From Leptogranulimonas caecicola (lineage in GTDB: Bacteria; Actinomycetota; Coriobacteriia; Coriobacteriales; Atopobiaceae), in contig NZ_AP025285.1 of assembly GCF_023168405.1 (NCBI RefSeq), forward strand, positions 1,734,001 to 1,798,000: DNA of 64,000 bases. The letters are read 5' to 3'. The notes beneath the pieces are model-generated. The model did no database searches. It had not been told where the DNA came from and worked only from the letters and a program-made list of their open reading frames with translations. The translations under genes and the position numbers were made by a program. Shown piece after piece: positions 9,648 to 24,845 of this stretch (position 1 is its first letter; the number at the start of each line of letters is the position of its first letter).

Positions 9648-11306
9648 ATGGCAGAGTCCATCCGCAAGGTAAATGTCATCGGGCATTTAAATCCCGATAC
9701 GGACAGTATTTGTTCCGCCATCTCCTACGCTTACCTCAAAAACGCGCTGGGTCCTAAAATCTTTGAGCCCCGCCGCTGCGGCAACATCAATCGTGAGACT
9801 GCATTCGTGTTGAAGCGCTGGGGTGCCGAGGAGCCGGAACTCATCACCTCGGTGCGCCCTCAAATCAAGGACCTCGAGTACCAAAAGCAAAAGGGCATCA
9901 ACGGCGAGATGTCGCTTTATGCCGCTTGGAACCTTATGCGCGAAGAGCACCAGGACACCCTCTGCATCACTGATGAGAACGAGGACCTGCGCGGCCTGGT
10001 CACCGTAAAAGACATCGCCAACGCCAATATGGCCATCTTCGACACCGATGTCTTGGCAACCGCTCGCACCAGCTACCGTAATGTGATCGAGACCCTCAAC
10101 GGCGAAATGGTGTTGGGCAATCCTGATGACGTCATCACCAGCGGCCGCGTCTTTGTAGGCACCAGCCCTGAGATGATGGAAGACACTATCGAAGAGGGCG
10201 ATATCGTCCTTGTCACCAACCGCTATGAGACCCAGCACTACGCGGTGGGAAGCGGCGCTGCCTGCCTCATCATCTGCTGCGACGCCCCTGTGACTCGCGC
10301 GCTTAAGAGTTCTGCCGAGCACCATGGCTGCCGCATCATCACCACCCCTTATGATACCTACGCAGCCACCCGCCTGATCTGCATGTCTATGCCGGTGCGC
10401 TCCATCATGCTCGACCACGACCTCGTCGAGTTCTCCGTCAATACCACCGTGGAAGACGTCCGCAAGGTCATGAGCTCTACCCGCCACCGCTTCTTCCCTG
10501 TCATCAATGAAGAGGGCCATTTTGACGGTGTCATTACCTCTGCCAACCTCTTCGACATCAAGCGCAAACATGTCATCTTGGTAGACCACAACGAGGTCTC
10601 CCAGGCGGTAGACGGCCTGTCTCATGCCATCATTCTTGAAATCATCGACCACCATCGCATTGGCTCGATCGAAACCTCTGCCCCCGCACTCTTCCGCAAC
10701 CAGCCGGTTGGCTGCACCTGCACCATCGTCAAGCAGATGTATGACGAGAACGGCGTCACTCCTCCGCCACACATCGCAGGTCTCATGCTCTCGGCTATCC
10801 TCTCCGACACACTCACCTTCCGCTCCCCTACCTGCACGGATCAAGACCGTATTGCAGCCCAGGAACTGGCTGGTATCGTAGGGGTAGACATCGATGCCTA
10901 TGCAGATGAGATGTTTGAAGCCGGCGCAGACCTCACTGGCCGTACCGCTGACGAAGTCTTCCACGGCGACTTCAAAGTCTTCTCTCGAGGCAGCGCACGC
11001 TTTGGCGTAGGCCAAGGCAGCTACATGACCGAGACCAGCCGCCGCGCCGCAGAGGACCTGCTGCGCCCCTATCTGGCTGACGCAGCTAAGAACGAGGATC
11101 TTCCCATCATTTTGTATATGTTTACCGATGTGAAGACCCAGACCACAGATCTGCTTTATTACGGCGAGGGCGCCGAGGCTGTCATCAAGGCCGCTTTTGG
11201 TGTCGAGCCTGAAGAAGGCATGGCCGTGCTACCTGGCGTCGTAAGCCGCAAGAAGCAAATGATCCCGCCTCTCATGAACGCCTTCGAGCGTCTCTCGGAG
11301 GAGTAA
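9648..11306 (+). CDS. ppaC: Mn-dependent inorganic pyrophosphatase with CBS/DRTGG domains
   Basis: A 552-residue family II (DHH-type) pyrophosphatase that hydrolyses PPi in the cytoplasm. The N-terminal metal motif is GHLNPDTDSICSA; the DHH motif EIIDHHRIGSIE and SDTLTFRSPT lie in the second half of the catalytic core, and a C-terminal SRKKQ supplies PPi-binding residues. Between the first and second metal motifs is a long insert of about 240 residues with two CBS-like segments around a DRTGG-like segment, so the enzyme is probably controlled by adenine nucleotides, as in the clostridial CBS-PPases of similar length. Start ATG with an AAGGAG site upstream. Confidence 0.93.
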   Translation: MAESIRKVNVIGHLNPDTDSICSAISYAYLKNALGPKIFEPRRCGNINRETAFVLKRWGAEEPELITSVRPQIKDLEYQKQKGINGEMSLYAAWNLMREEHQDTLCITDENEDLRGLVTVKDIANANMAIFDTDVLATARTSYRNVIETLNGEMVLGNPDDVITSGRVFVGTSPEMMEDTIEEGDIVLVTNRYETQHYAVGSGAACLIICCDAPVTRALKSSAEHHGCRIITTPYDTYAATRLICMSMPVRSIMLDHDLVEFSVNTTVEDVRKVMSSTRHRFFPVINEEGHFDGVITSANLFDIKRKHVILVDHNEVSQAVDGLSHAIILEIIDHHRIGSIETSAPALFRNQPVGCTCTIVKQMYDENGVTPPPHIAGLMLSAILSDTLTFRSPTCTDQDRIAAQELAGIVGVDIDAYADEMFEAGADLTGRTADEVFHGDFKVFSRGSARFGVGQGSYMTETSRRAAEDLLRPYLADAAKNEDLPIILYMFTDVKTQTTDLLYYGEGAEAVIKAAFGVEPEEGMAVLPGVVSRKKQMIPPLMNAFERLSEE

Positions 11307-11337
11307 TTCGAGACGGGGCGACATTAAAGGAAGGCCC

Positions 11338-13854
11338 ATGGAGACTTTTGGCACTCTGCACCTGCCGCCCTATAGCAAGATCACCACCTTCCCCGATCTT
11401 CTGGGTCAGGAGCCCTCTTCGGAGGGCTCCGCCCTCTCTGATGGACTGGCATTACTAGAGCCATCGAGCCGCTCATGGAACGAATGCGGGTGGAACTGGG
11501 CTCAGATAGATCCTGCTTCGGCCCATCCTCGTGCCCCTAGATGGGGTTATTTGATTCGCCTTCTGGATGGCGGCCACGTCAAAATCTATGGCTGTATAGG
11601 GCCAAACGGCGAGTTTTGGCCCTGTGAAAAACCCCAGAACGAGCCTCCTACCAAGGCACCCTTTATGCGCGTGGTTCCAGAAGGCAGAGGCAGAAGGGGC
11701 ACCATCACCGCAGACCTCAAAGATGCTCCTCCCTTTGCCTACTGGGAGGCCACCGGGCGCCACAAATACAAGCTCACCAAACTCCCTGAGAGGTTCAACG
11801 GCGCCCTTACCTCACCTGATGCACCTGAGCTGGATCTCTGTGAGCTCATCGCCCTTGCAAGCGCCTGCTTTGTAACTCTCTACGAAACTTCTGATGAGTC
11901 AGAGGAAGACATCCAGGAAGCATTCTCACTGGACGTTCTCACCAAAAGCCCGCTGCCAGATGCCCTGGACCGCCTCCTTGAAGCCAGTGATTCAACCGAT
12001 CCCCTAGCTCGTTATAGCGCCCGTATCCTAGCGCGATCAGGAGCAAAGTTCCTGCGTCCGCTGGCAGCCAAATACGACTGCACTATCGTGAGGCTTCCCA
12101 CTTCCAACCTCTGGTGGATCCGCATGCCCTCTGACCTTCCTTTGGAGGATCGCCGCCAGTTCCTCAAAGTAGAAAGCGCTATCAACCGCATCCAGCTCAT
12201 CTTGGACAATGAGAGCGCACTGGCTTCCAAAGACGAAGACTATATTCAATCCTTTGATGTCTACAAAAACACGGTGGGACTTTTAAACCTCATTGAGACT
12301 CATAGACTCAGTACCACCTCTGATGAGAATCCGCTGCGTACCGTACAAGGTTTCAGCGCCCCCAAGGGCTCCGAATGGGATGCGCGCACACGTATCTCTC
12401 AATCTTGCGAGCGATTCCCCTTCTTCACGAGGCTGGAATACCGCTGCGATATCGATATCAAACTAGGCGTAGCTACCTTCGAATATGCAGTGCCGGACCC
12501 TGACCTCATGCCTACTCCCTCAGAGAACGGTACAGGTACCACAAAACAGGACCTTGCCAATCTCTGTGGCATCTATCTCGCCGCATTCCTTGCAAGCACT
12601 GCCTTTGAGTCCAACGTCTGCATCCTGAATTGCGTGGTCAATGGGTTCGCCGGCTCATTAGGCGGAGAGTGCACCATGTCCTTCTCCTTCGCCCGCAGCG
12701 CTTTTGAGTCCCAGACGCTCGCAGCCCTTGAGAGTTGCCATTCCAACACCAAGCCAAAAGATGTCGCAACCACTCTTGGCCAGGTTGCTCGATTCTCAGG
12801 CCAAAACCAGCCTGTAGAGCCCTTCCGTGTTGAGGGGCTCACTTCTCGGCGTCGCGACCCCTCAGAAGACCAGCGAGAACTCCCCGACCATCTCAAGGGC
12901 TTGTTGCGTGCCGATCGCGTCTGCGAGCTTGAGGTAAATCGCGATTTTTATCCTGACGCCACCCGGCAAGTGGATCAGATTGTCGAGGAAGAAAAAGACA
13001 GCCCCGTGGTGGCCATCATGCGCCTGGAAACCCTGGCTGCCGAGGTGCTGGAAGCCTATGAAAAAGACTATGGCGCCCAAGAGGGCTTGGTGCCCCTCTA
13101 TTGCGACGGCTACTATGCCCGCATGACCATCCATAACGCCCCTCCAGGAGGCACGCTTCTCACGGGCATCGATGCGCTCAAAGATCCGCTGGCGCTTTCT
13201 CCAGAGCGTACGGCAGATCCTCATAAGCTTCGCTACTTCCGCGTGCCGGACGCCTACTTCGCCGCCAAGTACTCTTTGAGCAATCGCTATCGCGACCTCG
13301 ATGACTACCCCAGCGCTTTATCCATCCTCGACCAGCTTATCGCCATTGCCCCTAGCTCCAGCCGCCCTCGTCTGCAGCGTGCGGTGGTGCTAGGCGACAT
13401 GCAAGATTGGGCGGCTACCATAGAGGCCATCATCGACACACTCAAGGTGGCTCCTGATCTGGCGCTTTTCCCCTACTGTTTCTATCGCATGGCCTATGCC
13501 TATTGGCATCTTGGGCAACATGATCTTGCAGCGGCTTGCTATACCTTGGCCCAGCGAGATCCAGACATCAGCGATCAAGCCCAGCACGAGCTCTTTGCCA
13601 TGCAGGCGGAGACCCATATCGAGCTCCCCGACGTAGCCGAGGCTTCCCGCCGCCTCCAAGCCCAAGGCATCCCGCTGGTACCTGTGGCTTCTGCCTCTGA
13701 GATCCTGGCGCAATCCACCATCTCCCTGGTAGAGTGCGACGTTCCCCTTATGGCTTGGACCGGCACCTTCATCCTAGGGGACCGCATGTATAACGACGCC
13801 TTGGCAGGAGTAGGCCGCTCTCTGCTCGACGGCACGCCCAGTGCCTATGCCTAA
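11338..13854 (+). CDS. large TPR-containing protein, unknown
   Basis: An 838-residue soluble protein with no recognised family over its first two thirds. Around residues 640-760 there are tetratricopeptide-like helices (FAAKYSLSNRYRDLDDYPSA, then MAYAYWHLGQHDLAAACYTL), which usually bind other proteins. No signal peptide or membrane span is evident. The gene begins 32 bases after ppaC, with an AAAGGA site in front of the ATG, so the two are probably co-transcribed. Codon use looks like its neighbours. Function unknown. Confidence 0.75.
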   Translation: METFGTLHLPPYSKITTFPDLLGQEPSSEGSALSDGLALLEPSSRSWNECGWNWAQIDPASAHPRAPRWGYLIRLLDGGHVKIYGCIGPNGEFWPCEKPQNEPPTKAPFMRVVPEGRGRRGTITADLKDAPPFAYWEATGRHKYKLTKLPERFNGALTSPDAPELDLCELIALASACFVTLYETSDESEEDIQEAFSLDVLTKSPLPDALDRLLEASDSTDPLARYSARILARSGAKFLRPLAAKYDCTIVRLPTSNLWWIRMPSDLPLEDRRQFLKVESAINRIQLILDNESALASKDEDYIQSFDVYKNTVGLLNLIETHRLSTTSDENPLRTVQGFSAPKGSEWDARTRISQSCERFPFFTRLEYRCDIDIKLGVATFEYAVPDPDLMPTPSENGTGTTKQDLANLCGIYLAAFLASTAFESNVCILNCVVNGFAGSLGGECTMSFSFARSAFESQTLAALESCHSNTKPKDVATTLGQVARFSGQNQPVEPFRVEGLTSRRRDPSEDQRELPDHLKGLLRADRVCELEVNRDFYPDATRQVDQIVEEEKDSPVVAIMRLETLAAEVLEAYEKDYGAQEGLVPLYCDGYYARMTIHNAPPGGTLLTGIDALKDPLALSPERTADPHKLRYFRVPDAYFAAKYSLSNRYRDLDDYPSALSILDQLIAIAPSSSRPRLQRAVVLGDMQDWAATIEAIIDTLKVAPDLALFPYCFYRMAYAYWHLGQHDLAAACYTLAQRDPDISDQAQHELFAMQAETHIELPDVAEASRRLQAQGIPLVPVASASEILAQSTISLVECDVPLMAWTGTFILGDRMYNDALAGVGRSLLDGTPSAYA

Positions 13855-14093: not shown

Positions 14094-14537
14094 ATGTCGC
14101 AGGATCCTAAGAAAATTGCCGAGCAAAGCAAGGGCCTTTGGGCCGAGTTCAAAGAGTTTATCTCCCGCGGATCGGTGATCGACCTCGCAGTAGGCATGAT
14201 CATTGGCGCTGCGTTTACTGCCATCGTAAGCTCGCTGGTAAACGATGTGGTCATGCCCCTCATCGGCGTCATTATCGGCGGCATTGACTTCTCTGGCATT
14301 CAAACCCAGGTGGGCGGCGCCACCATCATGTGGGGCAACTTCATCCAGGCAATCATCAACTTCTTGCTTATCGCCCTGGTGGTCTTCCTCATGGTGAAGG
14401 CTATCAACACTGCCCACGATGTGATGACCAAAAAGAACGTCGAGGAGCTCGAGGAGGCTACCGCCGAGCCCACTCCTGAGGACAAGCAGCTGCAGCTGCT
14501 TGAGGAGATCCGCGACGCGCTGGTAAATCGCGAGTAA
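14094..14537 (+). CDS. mscL: large-conductance mechanosensitive channel MscL
   Basis: A 147-residue MscL, the pentameric channel that opens under high membrane tension to release solutes during osmotic downshock. The N-terminal helix and TM1 carry the family hallmark (FKEFISRGSVIDLAVGMIIG followed by AAFTAIV); TM2 is the IIMWGNFIQAIINFLLIALV region; the C-terminus has the charged helix EDKQLQLLEEIRDAL. Length is typical. An AAGGAAG ribosome binding site precedes the ATG, and a terminator follows at 14557. Confidence 0.97.
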   Translation: MSQDPKKIAEQSKGLWAEFKEFISRGSVIDLAVGMIIGAAFTAIVSSLVNDVVMPLIGVIIGGIDFSGIQTQVGGATIMWGNFIQAIINFLLIALVVFLMVKAINTAHDVMTKKNVEELEEATAEPTPEDKQLQLLEEIRDALVNRE

Positions 14538-14665: not shown

Positions 14666-15703
14666 TTAAAGAAGCATGTCCCCTGTGTTCAAACCCATGC
14701 TCACTGCAGATTCATAGAGAAGCTGGCTGGTGACAGGATCGGGCGGCTCCACCCCATCTTTGACGGCCAAGATATTGTCTACCACCACGTTGCCCATGCG
14801 CTCGCTGGACTCATAAGTGTTACCTGCGACATGCGGGGTTACCAGCACATTCTCATAGTCATAATAGGGTTGATGGATAGGCGGCTCCCTATCGAAGACG
14901 TCCGTGGCGAAGCCCCTGAGCCTTCCCTCTAGGAGCGCCTTGTTTAGGGCGTCATGGCGGACGATGCCAGCACGCGCAGTATTTATGAGAATTGCAGAAT
15001 CCTTCATCATTCGAAGCTCGCGTGCGCCTATAAGGTTTCGAGTCCCGTCGTTAAGAGGGGTATGGATGGTCACCACGTCTGAGCGTCGAAGCAGATCATT
15101 CAATGTTGTATATATTACGCCATAGATAGTCGGCTCGTTTCTCTGCACGATATCGTAACCAAGGATATCCATGCCAAAACCCATGGCGCGCCTGGCTACC
15201 GCACTTCCGATCTGCCCTACGCCCACAATGCCGATAGTCTTGCCATAGAGGCTCGTCCCTGCGATCTTGTCCCATCCTCCGCTGCGCGTGGATATGATCA
15301 TCTGCGAGATGTGACGCTCTAGGTCGAGGATCAGGCCCATGGTGAAGTCGGCCGTCTCCTCGCGGTTGGTCGCCGGAGCGTAGGTCACTTGGATATTGCG
15401 GGCTCGAGCCTCAGCAAGATCGACACCGTCAAAGCCCACGCCATAGCGAGCAATGATGCGCAATTTCCTAAGACGTTTTATCACGCTGGCAGGAAGGGGA
15501 TCATTGCCCAGGATTATCGCACGGGCATCTCCTGCGAACTCCACCATCTCACCCTTGGTAAGCGGGCGACCATAGGGGTTAAGTCGCACCTCGCACCCCG
15601 CCTCTTCCAGGCGACGCACCGGGCCTTCTGCGAATCGGCCGAACGTGACAGCACTCGAAGCTACGACCCACTTTGACGTACGAGACACGATTGCTCCCAC
15701 CAT
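14666..15703 (-). CDS. D-isomer-specific 2-hydroxyacid dehydrogenase
   Basis: A 345-residue NAD-dependent dehydrogenase of the SerA/GyaR/lactate type. The nucleotide-binding segment is GIVGVGQIGSAVARRAMGFG; the catalytic Arg is in LINTARAGIVRHDAL, the Glu in DVFDREPP and the His in VTPHVAGNT. These enzymes interconvert 2-keto acids and D-2-hydroxy acids. It is the last gene of a leftward run whose other members process a sugar acid, 103 bases after the lactonase gene, so it may act on a side product or on the pyruvate or glyoxylate level. The ribosome binding site is weak. Confidence 0.85.
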   Translation of the reverse strand: MVGAIVSRTSKWVVASSAVTFGRFAEGPVRRLEEAGCEVRLNPYGRPLTKGEMVEFAGDARAIILGNDPLPASVIKRLRKLRIIARYGVGFDGVDLAEARARNIQVTYAPATNREETADFTMGLILDLERHISQMIISTRSGGWDKIAGTSLYGKTIGIVGVGQIGSAVARRAMGFGMDILGYDIVQRNEPTIYGVIYTTLNDLLRRSDVVTIHTPLNDGTRNLIGARELRMMKDSAILINTARAGIVRHDALNKALLEGRLRGFATDVFDREPPIHQPYYDYENVLVTPHVAGNTYESSERMGNVVVDNILAVKDGVEPPDPVTSQLLYESAVSMGLNTGDMLL

Positions 15704-15806
15704 TCCATTAGCTGCTCTGAGGGCATTTTAGAGCAAGCAGGCGGCTCGAGGCTTCTCTGGCCATCGAACCGCCCGCGATTTACACGGCAGGTTGTCTCAT
15801 ACCTGG

Positions 15807-16712
15807 CTATGCCCAGTTAAGCAAACGCTGGGGATTCGCCCTCACCATGGCGTCAAAGGCTTCCTCGCCAATACAAGCCGTCAACTCTTTTTTGAGATCC
15901 GTAAGGATGTAGGCGAGGCCTGGCTTTCCCCCATAGGCAGGCCAATACTCCTTCTTGCCCATATCTCCAGCCAAACAAAGCCTGTCGCCAACACCTATCT
16001 CCACAAGCTCCTTGATCATTGACACGCGTTCGTGATCGCGACCGTCGAGGTCTCTCCCTACATGGTCGAGACTCACATAGGCTCCAGTGTTGCAAATAGC
16101 CGCAATATAGGCAGCGTTCAATGTCAGGTCCACATGGGAGAGACAGACGTGGCTTGGGTCCATCCCTTCGGCCTCAATAAGAGCCAGCTGCTCTAAGGCC
16201 ATGGTGCCTTTGTCACAATGAGTGATCATGGGCATATGATGCTCAACGGCAACCCTGGTGCAGATTTTGATCGCTCGACGTTCGCGGTCTGTGATGGTAT
16301 TCAGGCTTGTGCCCACCTTGACAGCTGCTGGCTTGATGCGGTGAGTGCCAATGCCGTCCTCGATCTCATCTGCCACCACCCCGGCTATCTCGTCATCGGA
16401 TAGCTTGTCAAACCATGTGGGAAGATGCTCCTCCTTATGAAGTCCAGTCACACAGAGAATGTGGCATCCTGTACGCGTGGCCATAACCTTTAAGGCCTCG
16501 GTATTTCGACCAAAGTTGAGTGGGGAAAGCTCCACAATGGTCGATCCCCCCGCAGCCATGAAGCTCTCGATCTCCTCCACACCGCGGTCCACGTCATCCA
16601 AGGTGTAGGGATAGAAGGCGGGCAGCTCGTTGGGCTTCACATAGAGGTGCTCATGAATGTAGGTGGTGCCAAGCTCGGCAACATCTACCGGCCCCAAAAC
16701 CGTATTGACCAT
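15807..16712 (-). CDS. phosphotriesterase-family (phospho)lactonase
   Basis: A 301-residue amidohydrolase-superfamily protein. Metal-site residues are visible in order: HxH in TTYIHEHLYV, the bridging lysine in IKPAAVKVGTS, histidines in MITHCDKGT and CLSHVD, and the aspartate in LCLAGDMG. Characterised relatives from Listeria and Mycoplasma that neighbour galactitol-type PTS genes hydrolyse phosphorylated aldonolactones. Context here is the same: PTS IIABC, a sugar-acid dehydratase and an aldolase. The ATG at 16712, 5 bases after the dehydratase stop, is preferred over 16769, which would overlap the upstream gene by about 50 bases. Confidence 0.8.
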   Translation of the reverse strand: MVNTVLGPVDVAELGTTYIHEHLYVKPNELPAFYPYTLDDVDRGVEEIESFMAAGGSTIVELSPLNFGRNTEALKVMATRTGCHILCVTGLHKEEHLPTWFDKLSDDEIAGVVADEIEDGIGTHRIKPAAVKVGTSLNTITDRERRAIKICTRVAVEHHMPMITHCDKGTMALEQLALIEAEGMDPSHVCLSHVDLTLNAAYIAAICNTGAYVSLDHVGRDLDGRDHERVSMIKELVEIGVGDRLCLAGDMGKKEYWPAYGGKPGLAYILTDLKKELTACIGEEAFDAMVRANPQRLLNWA

Positions 16713-16717
16713 GGCTG

Positions 16718-17863
16718 CTACCACTCGGCAATGGTGCCGTCGTAATTCTTCCAGGCGGGATTGCGCCACACGAGACCTTCGGCAGAGATTTGGCGGATCT
16801 TCTCCTCGTCCATGACGAGGCCCAGGCCAGGCTTATCGGGAATCTGCACGTAGCCGTCCTCAAACTCAAAAACCTCCTTGTTCTCGATGAAATCAAGGAT
16901 GTCGAAGCCCTGGTTGTAGTGGATGCCAAAGCTCTGCTCTTGAATGAACACGTTGGGAGTGCAGGCATCCACCTGAAGGGTGGCCGCCAACGCAATGGGA
17001 CCATAGGGGGCATGGGGCGCAGCGGCCATATCGTAGGCCTCGGCCATGGCACAGATCTTGCGAGTCTCAAGGATGCCACCACACATGGCCACATCGGGCT
17101 GGATGATGTCGATAGCGCCCTGTTGGAACAGCGTCTTGTACTCCCAGCGGCTATAAAGCCGCTCGCCGGTAGCCAGAGGCACGGCCACCTCGTTGGCGAT
17201 CTTGTCGAAGACCTCCCAGTTTTCAGGCAACACTACCTCCTCCAAGAACATGGGATGGTAAGGCTCGAGCGCCTTGGCGAGCACCTTGGCCATGGGCTTG
17301 TGCACGCGGCCATGAAAGTCGATTCCCACCTCGATGTCGTCGCCGCATACTTCGCGAATGGAGGCAATGCGGTCGACCACCGCCTTCACCTTGTCATAGG
17401 TGTCAACGTAATGAAGCTCCTCTGTGGCATTCATCTTGACCGCCTGGAATCCGCGGTCAAGACGACTCTTAGCTTGCTCGGCCACATCGGAAGGACGATC
17501 TCCGCCAATCCAGGAGTACACGCGAATGCGATCGCGGGCAGCGCCGCCAAGGAGCTCGTAAACAGGCACACCAAAGGCTTTTCCCTTGATGTCCCAGAGG
17601 GCCATCTCGATTCCAGAGACGATGGTGCCGTTGATGGGGCCGCCACGGAAGAAGGAGCGGTGCAGCTCTTGCCAGAGACGCTCGATCTCGAAGGGGTTGC
17701 GACCCACGATGCGCTCGGCCAGCTCCTTGGCGCCCTCTACCACCGTGCGAGTCTTGGTGCCAGAGATAAGCTCACCCCATCCAGAAATGCCTTCATCGGT
17801 GTTTACCTTGATAAAGATCCAGCGGGGTTTGACTTCAAAGAGCTCCACACCGGTAATTTTCAT
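16718..17863 (-). CDS. dgoD: galactonate dehydratase-like enolase-superfamily enzyme
   Basis: A 381-residue mandelate racemase/muconate lactonising enzyme family member. The N-terminus MKITGVELFEVKPRWIFIKV, the IKGKAFGVPVYELLGG capping region and SWIGGDRPSDV follow the pattern and length of E. coli D-galactonate dehydratase. Such enzymes remove water from an aldonate to give a 2-keto-3-deoxy acid. It is encoded between the PTS IIC and lactonase genes. Because no sugar-acid kinase is present and a PTS is, the natural substrate may be a phosphorylated aldonate; this is inference. The ATG has an AGGGGAT site. Confidence 0.85.
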   Translation of the reverse strand: MKITGVELFEVKPRWIFIKVNTDEGISGWGELISGTKTRTVVEGAKELAERIVGRNPFEIERLWQELHRSFFRGGPINGTIVSGIEMALWDIKGKAFGVPVYELLGGAARDRIRVYSWIGGDRPSDVAEQAKSRLDRGFQAVKMNATEELHYVDTYDKVKAVVDRIASIREVCGDDIEVGIDFHGRVHKPMAKVLAKALEPYHPMFLEEVVLPENWEVFDKIANEVAVPLATGERLYSRWEYKTLFQQGAIDIIQPDVAMCGGILETRKICAMAEAYDMAAAPHAPYGPIALAATLQVDACTPNVFIQEQSFGIHYNQGFDILDFIENKEVFEFEDGYVQIPDKPGLGLVMDEEKIRQISAEGLVWRNPAWKNYDGTIAEW

Positions 17864-17926
17864 ATCTATCCCCTGTTTCCAGAAGGGCCCAGAGGACAGC
17901 TCCTCTGGGCCAGATGAACAAATCTA

Positions 17927-19195
17927 TTACGCGAACAGGCCACCCAAAAGGGAGAGCACATAACCGATGAGGTGAGTACCTGCATCCTCGGTGCTAATGA
18001 GCTCCATGCCTTCGGGAAGGACAAATCCACCGGTAAGCGCAAGCTCAGTGTGAACGGGAGCCATGGCAGTGCCGATAAGCAGTACGGCTGCGGTAATAAG
18101 GGTTGCCGACAGGATGCCACGAACAATGTTGCCCTTTCCAAAGGCGCAGGGCCACGCGGCCAGCCACATGGCCTGATATGCGATGTCGGCCACAGGAAGG
18201 AGCTTGTTGCCAGGCAAGAAAGCCGCAAGCACTAGAGTAATGGGCACCATGATGATGCCTACAGTGATGACGGAATCATCAGCCACGGTCAGAGCGGCAT
18301 CGACGCCCATGGTGAAGTTGGCATCGGGGAATTTCTTGGACAGGGTGTTTTTGACGGCGTCGGCGAAGGGGAGCAGGCCCTGCATGAGGATCTGCATCAT
18401 CTTAGGGGTCAACACCATGGTGGCCGAGGTGCTCATGGCCACGATCATGATCTGCTCCACAGGATCGCCGGCAAGAATGCTGATAAGGGCGCCAAAGATA
18501 AGGCCCATGAACATAGGCTCACCCACAAAACCGAAGCGCTCTTGAATGCCTGCGGGAGAGGCATTGACGTTCTTGAGACCAGGGATAATACCCCAAAGCT
18601 TATCGAGGAAGAAGGCGACAGGAGCCCAGCACACCGAGTTGGACGTAGGGAAGTTCACGCCTTCCAGCTCGAAGTAATCCTCCACCACAGGAGTGGTCCA
18701 GTCGGCCAGCTTGAAGGAGATAATGGCGTCGATAGCCGCAGCCACAAGCGCGATCCAGGGATTGCCGCCAGTGGCGTACCATACAAGAGCGCCCGTGAAG
18801 ATGTAGTGGTTGTAGGACCAGAAGTCCACCATGACCGTGCGGGTCTGCTTGATGAGAAGCATCACCACGTTCACGCCGAGAATAACGAAAACCACCGGAG
18901 CTGCCAGAGGGAACGACCAGGTAGCAGCGGCGCGAGCCGGCCAGCCTACATCCATAATGGACGTCTGGATGCCCCAGTTGGCAACCATGGCCTGAACGCT
19001 ACCGGCCACTTGACCTACAAACCAGTTGATGACGATATTGACGCCTGCAAAACCTACGCCCACGAGGAGGGCGGATTTCAAAAGGGTGTTCATCTTCACG
19101 CGGAAGATCAGGCCTAGGATAAAGATGATGATAGGCATCATGCACATGGGGCCGAGCGACGCGAACGTCTGCAAGGCGGTAATCACGATCTCCAT
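17927..19195 (-). CDS. gatC: PTS galactitol-type transporter, IIC component
   Basis: A 422-residue multi-spanning permease of the GatC type. The N-terminus (ALQTFASLGPMCMMPIIIFI then GLIFRVK) and the internal FGFVGEPMFMGLIFGALISI match the family. It forms the membrane channel that moves a polyol or sugar acid during PTS phosphorylation. An AGGAGG site precedes the ATG. It follows the IIB gene by 42 bases and precedes the dehydratase gene by 63 bases. The precise sugar is not determinable: galactitol-type IIC proteins are also used for arabitol, ribitol and lactone or acid derivatives. Confidence 0.9.
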   Translation of the reverse strand: MEIVITALQTFASLGPMCMMPIIIFILGLIFRVKMNTLLKSALLVGVGFAGVNIVINWFVGQVAGSVQAMVANWGIQTSIMDVGWPARAAATWSFPLAAPVVFVILGVNVVMLLIKQTRTVMVDFWSYNHYIFTGALVWYATGGNPWIALVAAAIDAIISFKLADWTTPVVEDYFELEGVNFPTSNSVCWAPVAFFLDKLWGIIPGLKNVNASPAGIQERFGFVGEPMFMGLIFGALISILAGDPVEQIMIVAMSTSATMVLTPKMMQILMQGLLPFADAVKNTLSKKFPDANFTMGVDAALTVADDSVITVGIIMVPITLVLAAFLPGNKLLPVADIAYQAMWLAAWPCAFGKGNIVRGILSATLITAAVLLIGTAMAPVHTELALTGGFVLPEGMELISTEDAGTHLIGYVLSLLGGLFA

Positions 19196-19237
19196 GGAAC
19201 AAGCCTCCTAATGCGTATGCACTCTTATCTCTTGACG

Positions 19238-19534
19238 TTATTTCTTGAGCTCTTCTGCAATCTTGTCGAGCACAGCTTGCTCACCAACACCGGTAATGAA
19301 AGCAGTGCCTTTCACGATGGGCACATCAGTCTCGACACCCTTGAGCTTGCCAGTGGGAACGATGAGATCCACGTGGTTGGTAGCAAGATTGCCAAGCACC
19401 TCAGAGAACTTGCACTGAATGAAGTTGGGCTCAGGGGCGCCGATGGCCTTCGCCACTTCCTTGATCTTCTCTACCGCAACCGTAGAAGTGATCATTGATG
19501 AAGCGCAGCATACGATGACGGTTTTCTTCTCCAT
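19238..19534 (-). CDS. gatB: PTS IIB component, galactitol type
   Basis: A 98-residue IIB protein of the lactose/cellobiose-like fold. The phosphocysteine loop sits at the start, TVIVCCASSMITSTVAVEKI; the first or second cysteine (residues 9-10) is the phosphate carrier. It takes phosphate from IIA and passes it to the incoming sugar. AGGAAAGG precedes the ATG, and the gene lies 15 bases after gatA. Confidence 0.9.
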   Translation of the reverse strand: MEKKTVIVCCASSMITSTVAVEKIKEVAKAIGAPEPNFIQCKFSEVLGNLATNHVDLIVPTGKLKGVETDVPIVKGTAFITGVGEQAVLDKIAEELKK

Positions 19535-19549
19535 AATGCCTTTCCTCTC

Positions 19550-20008
19550 CTAATTAAAAATATCGACTACTTCATCTACGTTCGAAGCGTTCAGGGCTTT
19601 TTTGAGCGTGTCTTGGTCTTGGATAACACCCATGATTTTTTGAAGCGCATCTATCTGCTTCTCGGGCTTGTCAAACAAGCTCAGCACTACCACGGATACC
19701 TGCACCTGCTCGTCAGGGTCTTCCATGTTCTTCCAGGCCACTGGATTGGCGAGCGTTGCCACCACGAGCTTGGTAGCGCGGGCGTACTGAGGATCGGTGT
19801 GAGGAATAGCTGCGCAGATCTCACCCAGTTCAAGCCCGGTGGGATAGTTGTCTTCGCGCTCCAACAGGCTTTCCTCATAGCCAGGAACAATGGTCTTTTG
19901 AGCGGTCAAGTGCTCACAGAGCTGATGTATGACCTCTTCCTCGCTTGACGCCTTAAGCCCTAGCAGTGCGTCTTCAGGAGAAACACGAAACGTTGTCACA
20001 GCTACCAC
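19550..20008 (-). CDS. gatA: PTS IIA component, galactitol/fructose type
   Basis: A 152-residue IIA protein of the mannitol/fructose-like fold. The phosphohistidine is in the motif CAAIPHTDPQYAR (about residue 66). It accepts phosphate from HPr. It starts with GTG at 20008 and overlaps the aldolase stop by a few bases, showing tight coupling with the upstream gene; another GTG three codons in is possible. Confidence 0.88.
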   Translation of the reverse strand: MVAVTTFRVSPEDALLGLKASSEEEVIHQLCEHLTAQKTIVPGYEESLLEREDNYPTGLELGEICAAIPHTDPQYARATKLVVATLANPVAWKNMEDPDEQVQVSVVVLSLFDKPEKQIDALQKIMGVIQDQDTLKKALNASNVDEVVDIFN

Positions 20009-20628
20009 CTCACCCTTTTCTCCAGCTCTGCCAGGGATCGCGCAATGCCTTCCCCATTGTGTGTGGCTACATCTTCTGGGTTAAAGCAGCCTGAACCAAT
20101 ACCTGCATAGGATGCACCCGCATCAAAGTAGTCTTGGACGTTCTGGGCGTTGATGCCGCCCACCACCATGAGGGGCAGAGGACCAAGTGGAGCAGCCAGA
20201 TCTTTGAGGTAGGCAGGCCCTAGGCGGCTGGCAGGAAAGACCTTCACGATATCTGCCCCCATGTCAAACATAGTGGCAATCTCTGTGGGGCTGAACCCCG
20301 AAGGGACCGAGATGACGCCTGCATCCTTAGCCACATCGATAATCCCCTGAGAAAAGCCCACGGGCGAAAGCAAGAATGAAGAGCCTGCATCGATAGCTGC
20401 ATGAGCTTGCTCCACGGTGCGCACCGTGCCGGCGCCAATAGACAGCTCGTCGCCAAACTCATCGTTGAGCGCACGAATGGTATCCAAGGCGTCATCAGTG
20501 ACCAGCGACACTTCCATGGACCTAACTCGACTCTTGGTCATCTGGGCTGCAATGATTCGAGCTGCCTTCAGAGGGACACGCCTGAGGATCACCGTCACTT
20601 TGGGGAACGCCACGTTCTGACCAATCAC
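20002..20628 (-). CDS. KDPG/KDPGal-type aldolase
   Basis: A 208-residue class I aldolase of the Eda/DgoA family, which splits 2-keto-3-deoxy-6-phospho-sugar acids into pyruvate and glyceraldehyde 3-phosphate. Family landmarks are VTVILRRVPLKAA at the N-terminus (VTVILR replacing the usual VVPVIR), GAGTVRTVEQAHAAIDAGS and the Schiff-base lysine in ADIVKVFPASRLGP. It is the first gene of the PTS/dehydratase operon, so it most likely completes that pathway. The start is GTG at 20628 with a very strong AAGGAGGAG site. Confidence 0.9.
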   Translation of the reverse strand: MIGQNVAFPKVTVILRRVPLKAARIIAAQMTKSRVRSMEVSLVTDDALDTIRALNDEFGDELSIGAGTVRTVEQAHAAIDAGSSFLLSPVGFSQGIIDVAKDAGVISVPSGFSPTEIATMFDMGADIVKVFPASRLGPAYLKDLAAPLGPLPLMVVGGINAQNVQDYFDAGASYAGIGSGCFNPEDVATHNGEGIARSLAELEKRVRW

Positions 20629-21061: not shown

Positions 21062-24000
21062 CTACTGCTCGTCACCCTTCTCTTGAGAGCCACACATATC
21101 TACAAGGCCGCTCAGGCGCCTATATACAGCGTCGCTATCCTTGGCCAGCTCTGACTGGAGGCGGCCGGAAAGCTGGGGCTCGCGATCGGCCAGGCTCTCG
21201 TAGCGGCGCATCTTGGCCAAGAAGGGCTTGAGCGGCTTGGAAGGTGCGGGAGAGTCAACGGTCAATGGGTCTTCTCCTTGAACGCTCTTGCGTGGGTCGA
21301 AGCGCCAAAGCGGCCAGTAGCCGGTTTGGGTGGCCTCGCGCATGATGCCTGTGACAGAGGACATGCCGCCTTCGATCTGCCAGCTGATGCAGGGGCAAAG
21401 GGCGATGACCACGCTGGGGCCGTCGTAGGAGTCTGCCTCGTGGAGAGCCTGGATGAGCTGGTTCATATCGGCGCCAAAAGACACATGGGCCACATAGACG
21501 TAGCCGTACTGGGTGAGCATGAGGCCCAAATCTTTCTTGGGCGTGCGCTTGCCGTTATAGGTGAAACCGGTCACCGCGCCCAGCTGGGTGGCCTTGCTCA
21601 TCTCACCGCCGGTGTTGGAGTAGCCCTCGGTGTCGAGCACCAGCACATTGATGTTCTCGCCAGAGGCCACTACCTCGTCCAGTCCCCCATAGCCAATGTC
21701 GTAAGCCCAGCCATCGCCGCCCACGGCCCAGACACTCTTCTTGCCAAACATCTCCTTGTAGTCCAGGACCTCAGCGGCCAACGAACGCTCGTCAAGTCCC
21801 TGCGCTGCGCCAGAGGCAGCCGATGGATGAGGTCCATCGGCGTAGGGTTCGAGCTTCTCGGCAATGGCGACGCCCAAGGGATAGGCGGCGTCGGGATCGT
21901 CTTTGGAGGAGAGCCAGGTAGACATGAGGTCGCGAGTCTCGGGATCGAAGGCCTTCTGGGAGAGGGCAGAGTTGACGCATTGGGCCAAGTGGTCTCGGCG
22001 GATCTTGACGCCCTTGGCGATGCCGTAGCCGTACTCGCCGTTGTCCTCGAACAGGGAGTTGCCCCAGGCAGGGCCGTGACCTGCGGCATTTGTGGCATAA
22101 GGGATGGCCGGCATGTAGGCGCCCCAGATGGAGGAGCAGCCGGTGGCGTTGGCCATAATGAGGCGGTCGCCAAAGATCTGGGTGAGCAGCTTCACATGGG
22201 GAGTCTCGCCGCAGCCGGCGCAGCAGCTGGAGAACTGCAGGAGCGGAGGCTGGAGTTGGGTGCCCACCACCGAGGTCGTAGGCATGAGGTCTGTCTTGAG
22301 CGAGATGGACCCCTGACAAAACTCCAGAGCCTCTTTTTGGGTCTCAAGCTGGGTTTCCAGGGGCTGCAGGCTCAGGGCATGACCGGGACAGCGATAGACG
22401 CAGCTGCCGCACCCCACGCAATCCTCGGGGAAGACCTGGATGCGGAAGTTCAAGCCTTTGAGGTCTGGATGGCGGGCAGGCTTTGTGTCGAAGCCCTCTG
22501 GGGCACCGGAAAGCTCCTGGTCTGTGGCCACAAAGGGTCGAATGGCGGCATGGGGGCACACGAAGGAGCACTGGGTGCACTGAATGCATTTGTCAGCATC
22601 CCAAAGGGGGACGTTCACCGCCACAGTGCGCTTCTCCAGCGCAGTGGTGCCCAGAGGGGTGAAGCCATCGGGAGTGAGGGCACTTACAGGCAAATCGTCG
22701 CCTTTGAGCTCCTCCATGGGCCAGAAGACGTCTTTGACGTAGGCGCTCTGAATGCGGTCGGCCTGCTCTTGGGCCTGAGTGAGGGGGCCTTGGGTGTCGG
22801 TAGCCCAACTAGCGGGATAGTCGATGGCCACCAGCGAATCCAGGGCTTGTTGGACCGCCTGGATGTCGGCGTCCACCACCTTGGAGCCCTTGGCAGCATA
22901 GACCTGAGCGATATCTTTCTTAAGGGCGTCCAGGAAGCGGTCGTAGTCCATAAGGCTCGAAAGCTTGAGGTAGACGCACTCCATGATGAGGTTGATCTTG
23001 CCGCCCAGGCCGCATTTCTCGGCCAGAGAAGTGGCGTCTACGGCGTAGAGCTTCGCATGCTTTTTGGCCAGTGCCTGCCTGAGCTCGGCGGGCACCTGAC
23101 GCTCCCAGTCTTGCGGAGTAGTCCAAGGCGCATTGATCACAAAGGTGCCACCCTCCTTGAGGCGGCTGGCCATGGGATAGCCGCGGCGCACATAGATGGA
23201 CTTGTGACAGGCCACGTAGTCTGCATTATCAATCAAGTAAGGAGCCTGGATGGGGGCATCGTCCAAACGCAGGTAGCAAATGGTGAGACCGCCGGACTTC
23301 TTGGAGTCAAACCAGCTGTATTCCTGCACGTAGATGCCCTGCTCCTTGGAGAGGATGCGCGCCGCCTGCTTGGAGGCGCCCACCGTGCCGTCGGAGCCAA
23401 AGCCATAGAACACGGCCTGGGACTTGGGCGCCTTGCCCACCTGGAAGGGTTCGCCCACCGGCAGCGACAGATAGGTGACGTCATCGGTGATTCCTACCGA
23501 GAAACGCTCCTTGGGCGAGCTGGAATCCATGTTGTCGAAGACAGCCTTGACTTGGGCCGGAGTGAAATCCTTGGAAGACAATCCATAGCGGCCGCCAAAG
23601 ACCTTGATGGCACGTCCGCTTGAAAGCACTGCCAGCGCCACGTCTTCGAAGAGAGGCTCGCCTAGGCTGCCAGGCTCTTTGGTGCGGTCCAGCACCGAGA
23701 TGCACTCCACCGTCTGAGGCAACGCATCCATAAGGTGAGCCCCGGAGAAGGGGCGATAGAGCCGCACGGCAACCACACCCACTTTGTGGCCTTCATCCTG
23801 CAGCTGCGCCACGGTTTGGGCCACCACCTGGGCCGACGAGGCCATGGTCACAATCACATGGGTAGCGTCCGGCGCACCGATATAGTCAAAGAGATGATAC
23901 TGGCGGCCGGACAGCTTTGCCAGCTTGTCCATGTTGGCCTGCACCAACGCCGGCAGCTTGTCATAATAGGGGTTGGCAGCCTCGCGATTTTGGAAATAGA

Positions 24001-24715
24001 TGTCAGGGTTTTGAGCGGTGCCACGCACCTGTGGGCGCTCGGGCTCCAGGCAACGCTGCCTAAAGGCGCGCACCTTATCCCAATCTACCAGTGGCTTCAT
24101 GGCCTCAGGGTCGACGGTCTCGATGGTCTCGATGGCATCCGAGGTGCGGAAGCCGTCAAAGAAGTGCACAAAGGGCACCGATCCGTCGATGGCCGACAAG
24201 TGCGCCACCCAGGACAAGTCCATGCATTCCTGCACCGTAGCGCTGGCCAACATGGCTAGACCCGTTGCCCTGATGGCCATGATGTCTTGATGGTCGCCAA
24301 AGATCGACAGAGCATGAGCCGAAAGCGAGCGGCACGTCACATGGAGCACACCCGGCAAAAGCTCGCCCGAGAGCTTATAGAGACTGGGAATCATGAGCAT
24401 GAGGCCCTGGGATGCGGTAAACGTCGAGGTAAGGGCCCCTCCTGCCAGAGCACCGTGCAGAGCGCCGGCCACGCCCTTCTCGGACTGCATCTCTTTGACC
24501 TCCACCGGTGACCCAAAGAAATTGAGGCGGCCGTCGCACGCCCAGCGTTCCACCGTCTCTGCCATCCGCGAGGCCGGCGTGATGGGATAGATGAAGGCCG
24601 CATCCGAGAGCGCATAGGCCGCCTGAGCCGCTGCCGTCATGCCATCCATAGCCTGAAGCTGGGATTTTGTCGTAGTCGACGATGCAGACGCAGGGGTAGA
24701 CGGAGTTTGTGCCAT
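21062..24715 (-). CDS. nifJ: pyruvate:ferredoxin (flavodoxin) oxidoreductase
   Basis: A 1217-residue fused oxidoreductase that converts pyruvate and CoA to acetyl-CoA, CO2 and reduced ferredoxin, the main pyruvate route of strict anaerobes. Domains in order: the pyruvate-binding domain starting DGMTAAAQAAYALSDAAFIY with YPITPAS; the gamma-type domain with FYGFGSDGTVGAS; two 4Fe-4S motifs CIQCTQCSFVCP (about residue 710) and CVGCGSCVYRCPG (about 765); and the TPP domain with CCAGCGETPH (about 835) and GDGWAYDIGYGG. The ATG at 24715 has GGGAGG four bases upstream; the longer open frame to 24808 has none. The first 20 residues are low-complexity Ser/Thr/Ala. Divergent from the ClC gene. Confidence 0.96.
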   Translation of the reverse strand: MAQTPSTPASASSTTTKSQLQAMDGMTAAAQAAYALSDAAFIYPITPASRMAETVERWACDGRLNFFGSPVEVKEMQSEKGVAGALHGALAGGALTSTFTASQGLMLMIPSLYKLSGELLPGVLHVTCRSLSAHALSIFGDHQDIMAIRATGLAMLASATVQECMDLSWVAHLSAIDGSVPFVHFFDGFRTSDAIETIETVDPEAMKPLVDWDKVRAFRQRCLEPERPQVRGTAQNPDIYFQNREAANPYYDKLPALVQANMDKLAKLSGRQYHLFDYIGAPDATHVIVTMASSAQVVAQTVAQLQDEGHKVGVVAVRLYRPFSGAHLMDALPQTVECISVLDRTKEPGSLGEPLFEDVALAVLSSGRAIKVFGGRYGLSSKDFTPAQVKAVFDNMDSSSPKERFSVGITDDVTYLSLPVGEPFQVGKAPKSQAVFYGFGSDGTVGASKQAARILSKEQGIYVQEYSWFDSKKSGGLTICYLRLDDAPIQAPYLIDNADYVACHKSIYVRRGYPMASRLKEGGTFVINAPWTTPQDWERQVPAELRQALAKKHAKLYAVDATSLAEKCGLGGKINLIMECVYLKLSSLMDYDRFLDALKKDIAQVYAAKGSKVVDADIQAVQQALDSLVAIDYPASWATDTQGPLTQAQEQADRIQSAYVKDVFWPMEELKGDDLPVSALTPDGFTPLGTTALEKRTVAVNVPLWDADKCIQCTQCSFVCPHAAIRPFVATDQELSGAPEGFDTKPARHPDLKGLNFRIQVFPEDCVGCGSCVYRCPGHALSLQPLETQLETQKEALEFCQGSISLKTDLMPTTSVVGTQLQPPLLQFSSCCAGCGETPHVKLLTQIFGDRLIMANATGCSSIWGAYMPAIPYATNAAGHGPAWGNSLFEDNGEYGYGIAKGVKIRRDHLAQCVNSALSQKAFDPETRDLMSTWLSSKDDPDAAYPLGVAIAEKLEPYADGPHPSAASGAAQGLDERSLAAEVLDYKEMFGKKSVWAVGGDGWAYDIGYGGLDEVVASGENINVLVLDTEGYSNTGGEMSKATQLGAVTGFTYNGKRTPKKDLGLMLTQYGYVYVAHVSFGADMNQLIQALHEADSYDGPSVVIALCPCISWQIEGGMSSVTGIMREATQTGYWPLWRFDPRKSVQGEDPLTVDSPAPSKPLKPFLAKMRRYESLADREPQLSGRLQSELAKDSDAVYRRLSGLVDMCGSQEKGDEQ

Positions 24716-24845
24716 GGTGCCTCCCAAGAAATGCGCGGACGCAATGAGTGCCTTCTGTCGGTCTATACCCCCAAGAAGCCCCATCCCAAGGCATGCGCCT
24801 GCCTGCATGGGTAAAAAGGAATCTACGGATATATGGGAGGTGAGT

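Follow-up and report, generated by a model that had tools for sequence, protein, structure and literature searches.

A recurrent PTS-linked operon points to a probable kinase-free branch of galactonate-type catabolism

Introduction

How might a galactonate-type acid be degraded by an operon that has no kinase? This question is raised by a 64,000-nucleotide stretch of the Leptogranulimonas caecicola genome (contig NZ_AP025285.1, positions 1,734,001 to 1,798,000; hereafter the window). The open reading frame (ORF) list of the window holds a seven-gene operon on the minus strand, running from 20628 down to 14666 with small intergenic gaps. An aldolase comes first, followed by phosphotransferase system (PTS) IIA, IIB and IIC, the galactonate dehydratase DgoD, an enzyme of the PTE family and finally a D-2-hydroxyacid dehydrogenase. 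All seven proteins scored above their Pfam cut-offs, and the operon, its order and its coordinates are confirmed as given in a preliminary description of this DNA. There is no kinase in the operon.

A PTS phosphorylates what it imports, and KDPG/KDPGal aldolases take a phosphorylated 2-keto-3-deoxy acid. Because PTS import and aldolase are both of the phospho-type and no kinase separates the two, a phosphorylated acid is the expected substrate of the dehydratase. We consider it probable that the operon encodes a branch of galactonate-type catabolism that depends on a PTS and does without a kinase.

Results

The operon core recurs around the nearest DgoD relatives

From 539 DgoD relatives found in named genomes we took the best 80, picked by closeness to the window DgoD and not by context, and read their surroundings by translated searches of at most 8 kb to either side. 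Four loci (L085, L094, L172 and L173; two on plasmids, two in genomes) were added on account of their PTS, which gives 84 PTS loci; the window is not one of them. The best 80 relatives span Lactobacillales, Clostridia, Erysipelotrichaceae, Coriobacteriia and others, and the nearest among them is a locus of Olsenella sp. KGMB02461 (DgoD 98% identical).

We observed a GAT-type IIC at 80/80 of the nearest loci and DgoK at 0/80. In the enlarged set, IIC was found at 84/84 loci, the aldolase at 83/84, IIB at 83/84 and IIA at 82/84, and the core gene order was usually the same. One locus, L034, has IIC and DgoD and no aldolase match. Outside the clade, a GAT IIC was found at 0/34 DgoD loci. These comparison loci are E. 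coli K-12, 8 plasmid loci (used out of 10 fetched, among 60 listed matches) and 25 loci from sampled genomes. From 396 genomes of the window's phylum we used 11 of 15 over-cut-off DgoD matches; the other four were the window's own and those of G012 (almost a copy of the window), G379 (partial) and G175 (low score). From 398 Bacillota genomes we used 14 of 20 DgoD matches, leaving aside G396 (identical with L015), L174 (a repeat of L025), two PTS-linked matches and the low-scoring L178 and L179.

The core is thus widespread in Bacillota and Coriobacteriia and not a one-off. Its recurrence at related loci led us to reject a chance clustering of the operon genes. A narrower form of this explanation holds that an ordinary galactonate pathway merely happens to adjoin an unrelated galactitol-type PTS, and the best-named NCBIfam model of each PTS protein is indeed a galactitol PTS one. 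The recurrence refutes it (GAT PTS 80/80 versus 0/34, order usually the same), and we give it next to no weight.

PTS-linked dehydratases form one clade with a remodelled loop

The dehydratase gene (16718..17863, minus strand) encodes a protein that scored 613.8 bits against the NCBIfam galactonate dehydratase model NF010624 (cut-off 311), with 228.7 bits for PF13378 and 71.4 bits for PF02746. The preliminary description had called it DgoD-like; the family was right but the label understated a full family member. By both sequence and predicted fold, the closest solved dehydratase is 3rr1/3rra from Ralstonia pickettii. The predicted fold matched 3rra with Z 49.1 and an rmsd of 2.1 over 371 residues at 47% identity (mean pLDDT 85.9, pTM 0.88; residue n of the model corresponds to residue n+1 of the protein).

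We built a quick maximum-likelihood tree of 119 DgoD rows, in which the PTS set is represented by 84 rows (the window and 83 loci; L080 was left out). L086 was dropped from the alignment, as its extraction ended at a stop codon, and so was the repeat L183; L117-L132 were unused. The 84 PTS-linked DgoDs formed a single group with no foreign row inside (SH-aLRT 100; stem 0.45 changes per column). The kinase-linked DgoDs of L169 and L170 are sister rows of this clade (fork holding both: support 93) and offer the state before the switch as a reference for the loop change described below.

We identified 24 positions that are conserved in the PTS clade and nearly absent in 33 outgroup DgoDs. Five of them are consecutive, at residues 34-38 (codons 17750..17764, minus strand). 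In the predicted model this loop lies between a strand and the first capping-domain helix, at the start of helix 1 and just before model helix 37-48. The PTS clade reads Ser-Gly-Thr-Lys-Thr (S34 84/84, G35 84/84, T36 83/84, K37 81/84 with R in 3, T38 84/84). Outgroup DgoDs read mostly Val/Ile/Leu-Glu-Gly-Arg-Ala, with Glu35 in 33/33 and Gly36 in 33/33. The Glu35-Gly36 loop of kinase- and SDR-linked DgoDs therefore occurs in 0/84 PTS-clade rows and 33/33 others, as a clade difference and not as a curated defining feature of DgoD.

As a control, we analysed a nine-row outgroup clade with a comparable stem (0.40), which has six clade-specific positions and 0 in 34-38. Among smaller controls, a pair of rows has one position in this stretch (34) and a trio none. 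Five clade-specific positions at residues 34-38, given 24 in 381, corresponds to P = 6.5e-7 (Fisher), for a stretch chosen post hoc and among related rows. On a plasmid of Enterococcus faecium, a DgoD (L086:7001-8146) that adjoins a 2-dehydro-3-deoxygalactonokinase has the kinase-type loop residues, so the loop difference follows context and not genus. This copy carries one in-frame stop and may therefore be inactive.

Other clade-specific changes lie apart from the loop in sequence. Lys12, in the turn of the first beta hairpin (codon 17828..17830, minus strand), is K in 83/84 PTS-clade rows. Ala285-Pro286-Tyr287 (codons 17003..17011, minus strand) follows directly after His284, with A285 in 84/84 and Y287 in 84/84; the outgroup has Leu at 287 in 33/33. 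F72 is also specific to the PTS-linked DgoDs, and outgroup rows have Tyr there (33/33). By comparison, all eight catalytic or active-site positions that we checked were the same in all 84 PTS-clade and 33 outgroup rows. These include D182, H184, E208, E234 and H284 (84/84 and 33/33), which we take to be the metal and catalytic residues of DgoD.

Substrate specificity in the enolase superfamily is determined by capping-domain loops around residues 20 and 50, and phosphate groups are commonly bound where Ser, Thr or Lys stands at the beginning of a helix. Inspection of the active-site loops for phosphate-type residues brought out a clade-specific SGTKT capping loop at 34-38. Its composition and modelled position suggest that it would suit a phosphate group.

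The same logic could operate on another substrate, such as a pentonate, another aldonate or lactone, or a 2-keto-aldonate reduced by the dehydrogenase, with the sugar specificity of DgoD changed as well. Of the 24 clade-specific positions, 14 lie outside residues 12, 16, 34-38, 42, 44 and 45, as this explanation would allow. Against it, the DgoD score is nearly twice the galactonate dehydratase cut-off, and the eight active-site positions are unchanged. Taking these data together with those on the transporter and the dehydrogenase given below, we regard another substrate as a minority possibility, some way behind a galactonate-type acid.

Kinases are rare at PTS-linked loci

We searched the whole L. 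caecicola genome and found no match to the DgoK family; on this basis we discarded the possibility of a DgoK outside the operon. PfkB kinases gave 8 matches, 7 of them above the cut-off. One of these (near 97 kb of G000:C1; locus L095) lies at a great distance from the operon and is accompanied by a separate KDPG aldolase and an SDR-like ORF. The cluster is likely the uronate/KDG pathway of this genome. It also holds an ORF that reads as a regulator (L095, L192; kinase and aldolase by Pfam, SDR-like and regulator-like ORFs by reading). The preliminary description had named a kinase gene elsewhere in the regulon as a finding that would refute its pathway: no DgoK exists in the genome, but a PfkB KDG kinase does, in this separate cluster.

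Matches to KDG/KDGal kinases of at least 80 bits were found at 3/84 PTS loci compared to 22/34 non-PTS DgoD loci, and matches of at least 50 bits at 5/84 compared to 23/34. Those at PTS loci sit more than 6 kb from DgoD; the one at L045 is a PfkB protein paired with a second aldolase fragment. We extended the kinase searches to carrier genomes, choosing 50 of the 80 loci and covering 49 genomes. DgoK was found in 0/49. A KdgK-like kinase was found in 16/49 at E 1e-40, and the 33/49 with none at that threshold are an upper bound on genomes lacking one, because E 1e-40 misses divergent KDG kinases (some outgroup-locus kinases scored only ~90-112 bits).

These data bear on the explanation in which the free acid is still the substrate of DgoD. 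Galactonate would then come from a phosphatase or from import without phosphorylation, and a KDG kinase encoded in the genome would phosphorylate the product. The PfkB KDG-type kinase of L. caecicola and the KdgK-like kinases of 16/49 carrier genomes fit such a route, as does a HAD-family hydrolase directly after DgoD in a Clostridium operon (L044:9224-10063). Against it stand the 33/49 carrier genomes without a KdgK-like kinase at E 1e-40, a threshold at which divergent ones are missed, and the lack of DgoK in all 49. The L. caecicola KDG kinase also sits with an aldolase of its own, the loop change coincides with the PTS, and phosphorylation followed by dephosphorylation would be wasteful. 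We therefore hold the free-acid route to be improbable. The HAD hydrolase is possibly a detoxifying sugar phosphatase; ORFs of similar size occur in other clostridial loci.

Overall, the proposal that PTS phosphorylation replaces the kinase and that the dehydratase acts on a phospho-aldonate, first made in the preliminary description, draws support from the distribution of the GAT PTS and of DgoK among DgoD loci and from the loop.

The lactonase accompanies one transporter type

IIC (17927..19195, minus strand) is an EIIC-GAT protein (PF03611, 216.4 bits; cut-off 24.2) that scored 362.5 bits against TIGR00827, under the cut-off of 542.2. IIA (19550..20008, minus strand) has the PTS_EIIA_2 fold (PF00359, 103.3 bits); its best NCBIfam model is the galactitol IIA PRK09665 (64.8 bits, under the cut-off of 139). 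IIB (19238..19534, minus strand) is likewise galactitol-like (PF02302, 24.7 bits; cut-off 23.6), with 56.7 bits against PRK10310, under the cut-off of 95. None of the three proteins, although they resemble those of the galactitol PTS, reaches the galactitol equivalog or subfamily cut-offs. That all three fall short also favours the explanation by another substrate.

We observed three types of IIC protein at PTS-linked DgoD loci: A, to which that of the window belongs, B, and C, which is small (L082, L172, L173). A PTE-family gene was present at 25/25 type A loci (the L079 match is short, at 103 bits in an 80-residue ORF) and at 0/59 type B and C loci. The preliminary description had placed the lactonase in the pathway; it belongs to the window operon but is tied to IIC type A and not part of the core.

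The DgoDs of lactonase and non-lactonase loci intermix in the tree. The label type A must change nine times along it, at least seven of them forced by supported branches, so IIC type A and PTE appear to move together. Both transporter kinds occur in Enterococcus malodoratus (L033 A, L042 B) and in a single strain of Lacticaseibacillus zeae (L012 A, L014 B). We found no DgoD position that cleanly separates types A and B; the most different one still overlaps by 0.29. The two types differ in transporter and lactonase but not cleanly at any DgoD position, which suggests one common acid and argues against a change of substrate. The simplest reading is that both transporters feed one phosphorylated acid, type A by way of a lactone that must be opened.

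To assess whether PTE is a general companion of GAT PTS genes, we fetched 20 of 36 listed GAT-IIC places (IIC 37-42% identical to that of the window). PTE, DgoD or an operon-type aldolase was carried by 0/20, and we rejected this possibility; the control is weak for type A, because every one of the 20 is by score nearer to the IIC of type B. Among 398 sampled Bacillota genomes, the IIC that best matched that of the window was 42% identical, so no close type A IIC was found in this sample outside DgoD loci.

The PTE-family gene, a candidate phospho-aldonolactonase, is listed as an ORF reaching to 16769 (minus strand). The protein probably starts at 16712 (15807..16712), because its relatives align from that methionine. 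It scored 167.4 bits for PF02126 and is encoded by the only PTE-family gene in the genome. Residues H20, H22, K132, H165, H193 and D250 were invariant in 19 sequences; we take these to be the binuclear metal ligands of the PTE fold (HxH, Lys, His, His, Asp). Many type B operons have a small ORF after DgoD of ~150-200 residues with a hydrophobic start (L018:6561-7049, L085:8173-8664 and relatives). We dropped it as a lactonase candidate, as its representative L018 had no Pfam match.

Aldolase, dehydrogenase and flanking genes

The first gene (20002..20628, minus strand) encodes a KDPG/KDPGal-type aldolase (PF01081, 94.3 bits; cut-off 27.8). It scored 126.8 bits against TIGR01182 (eda), under the cut-off of 156.05. 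Its alignment shows an IVKVFPA lysine, presumably the Schiff-base lysine, and a GG...GIGS loop that we take to be the phosphate loop.

The last gene (14666..15703, minus strand) encodes a D-isomer-specific 2-hydroxyacid dehydrogenase (PF02826, 191.2 bits; PF00389, 82.5 bits). Homologues of at least 250 bits were found at 10/84 PTS-linked loci, seven in Coriobacteria and three of type C. Some stand beside a second dehydratase. At L005, an ILVD_EDD-family dehydratase (10121-11758, by Pfam) directly follows the lactonase, giving two unrelated dehydratases in one operon; an ORF at L007 matches it with the same length and a near-identical start. At the type C locus L082, a two-piece GD_AH (altronate/galactarate-type) dehydratase lies beside the dehydrogenase, and ORFs at L172 match these pieces in size and order. 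Operons with a dehydrogenase and a second dehydratase hint that a second substrate enters the pathway from the side, and they too can be read in favour of another substrate.

No PTS-domain regulator adjoins the window operon. The next upstream ORF on the same strand (21062-24808, minus) encodes 1248 residues and, judged from the letters of the protein, reads as a pyruvate:ferredoxin oxidoreductase; on the other flank, an ORF at 14094-14537 (plus) reads in the same way as an MscL-type channel. At related loci a PTS-domain regulator often lies upstream, such as a PRD protein with EIIA (L015) or a LevR-like sigma-54 activator (L064). A scan for promoters and terminators did no better than on shuffled sequences (5 versus 3.9 and 4 versus 5.0).

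Discussion

The following route would account for these genes. IIA, IIB and IIC would import an aldonolactone, most likely D-galactono-lactone, or the acid, and phosphorylate its terminal hydroxyl. The PTE-family enzyme may then hydrolyse the phospho-lactone to a 6-phospho-aldonate. From its clade, context and loop, we infer that DgoD with the SGTKT loop would dehydrate this phospho-aldonate to a 2-keto-3-deoxy-6-phospho-aldonate, which is otherwise the product of DgoK. The KDPG/KDPGal-type aldolase, to judge by its family, would split it into pyruvate and glyceraldehyde 3-phosphate. The dehydrogenase could conceivably be an accessory, perhaps reducing a 2-keto-aldonate phosphate into the pathway; KguD plays such a reducing role in 2-ketogluconate catabolism. 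Whether type B acts as an acid importer and type A as a lactone importer with its phospho-lactonase, two interchangeable modules feeding an SGTKT-loop 6-phospho-aldonate dehydratase in a widespread and apparently undescribed branch in Bacillota and Coriobacteriia, is in our judgement an evenly balanced question.

Several points weigh against this pathway. Its substrate, phosphate site and every reaction are deduced from sequence. Because the loci are related, their counts are not independent. A nearby kinase match of at least 80 bits is also missing from 12/34 non-PTS DgoD loci, several of them SDR-linked. Lys12 is not exclusive to the clade, with K also in 4/33 outgroup DgoDs, and the orientation of the loop toward the distal substrate end is judged from a secondary-structure string and the general anatomy of the superfamily. 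The lactonase scored 110.3 bits against the phospho-furanose lactonase model NF045706 (cut-off 630). Because the genome has a KDG kinase, a route via a free 2-keto-3-deoxy acid may be possible. The dehydrogenase and second dehydratase families of related operons are left unaccounted for.

If the kinase-free, PTS-dependent pathway is correct, many annotations of a galactonate dehydratase with a galactitol PTS would really denote a phospho-aldonate dehydratase with an aldonate or aldonolactone PTS, so that many lactic acid bacteria, enterococci, clostridia and gut Coriobacteria would have a mis-specified pathway in their genomes. It would explain the use of galactonate-type acids without DgoK in these bacteria. 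It would also add a phosphorylated substrate to the enolase-superfamily acid-sugar dehydratases, with a short swappable loop for specificity. The coupling of IIC and lactonase offers a direct way to tell lactone transporters from others. To our knowledge, a dehydratase of the mandelate racemase subgroup acting on a phosphorylated acid would be new, if shown. In the open PubMed Central (PMC) literature, with subscription journals outside the search, we found no galactonate PTS and no enolase-superfamily 6-phospho-aldonate dehydratase. In a study of Enterococcus faecalis, dgoD and PTS-Gat IIABC are named among blood-specific galactose metabolism genes (PMC6042284).

Among the closest known systems, the De Ley-Doudoroff pathway of E. 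coli (dgoRKADT) likewise has a DgoD-family dehydratase, a KDPGal-type aldolase and pyruvate and glyceraldehyde 3-phosphate as expected products. The window operon has a PTS in place of the DgoT symporter, no DgoK, and an SGTKT loop for the EG of the E. coli type, and dehydration is proposed to come after phosphorylation. As it lacks both kinase and symporter, it is not the dgo pathway. The gluconate PTS of Enterococcus phosphorylates an aldonate on entry, as proposed here, but it is mannose-type and feeds 6-phosphogluconate to other enzymes. The Mycoplasma phospho-furanose lactonases (NF045706; 3msr/3ovg) reportedly act on phosphorylated pentonolactones; they share the PTE-family fold with the window lactonase but are distant from it (110.3 versus 630 bits).

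In the Salmonella glucosaminate pathway (DgaABCDEF; PMC4987338), an acid sugar is phosphorylated on import and needs no kinase before a dehydratase-type enzyme and then an aldolase process it. It differs in its PTS, which is of the mannose family, and in its lyase, a glucosaminate-6-phosphate ammonia-lyase (PMC9529869) and not an enolase-superfamily enzyme. The Ula ascorbate PTS and UlaG provide the parallel for the lactonase step, in that a lactone is phosphorylated on PTS import and then opened by a lactonase (PMC3302838). Compared to the window operon, they differ in PTS family, lactonase fold and downstream pathway.

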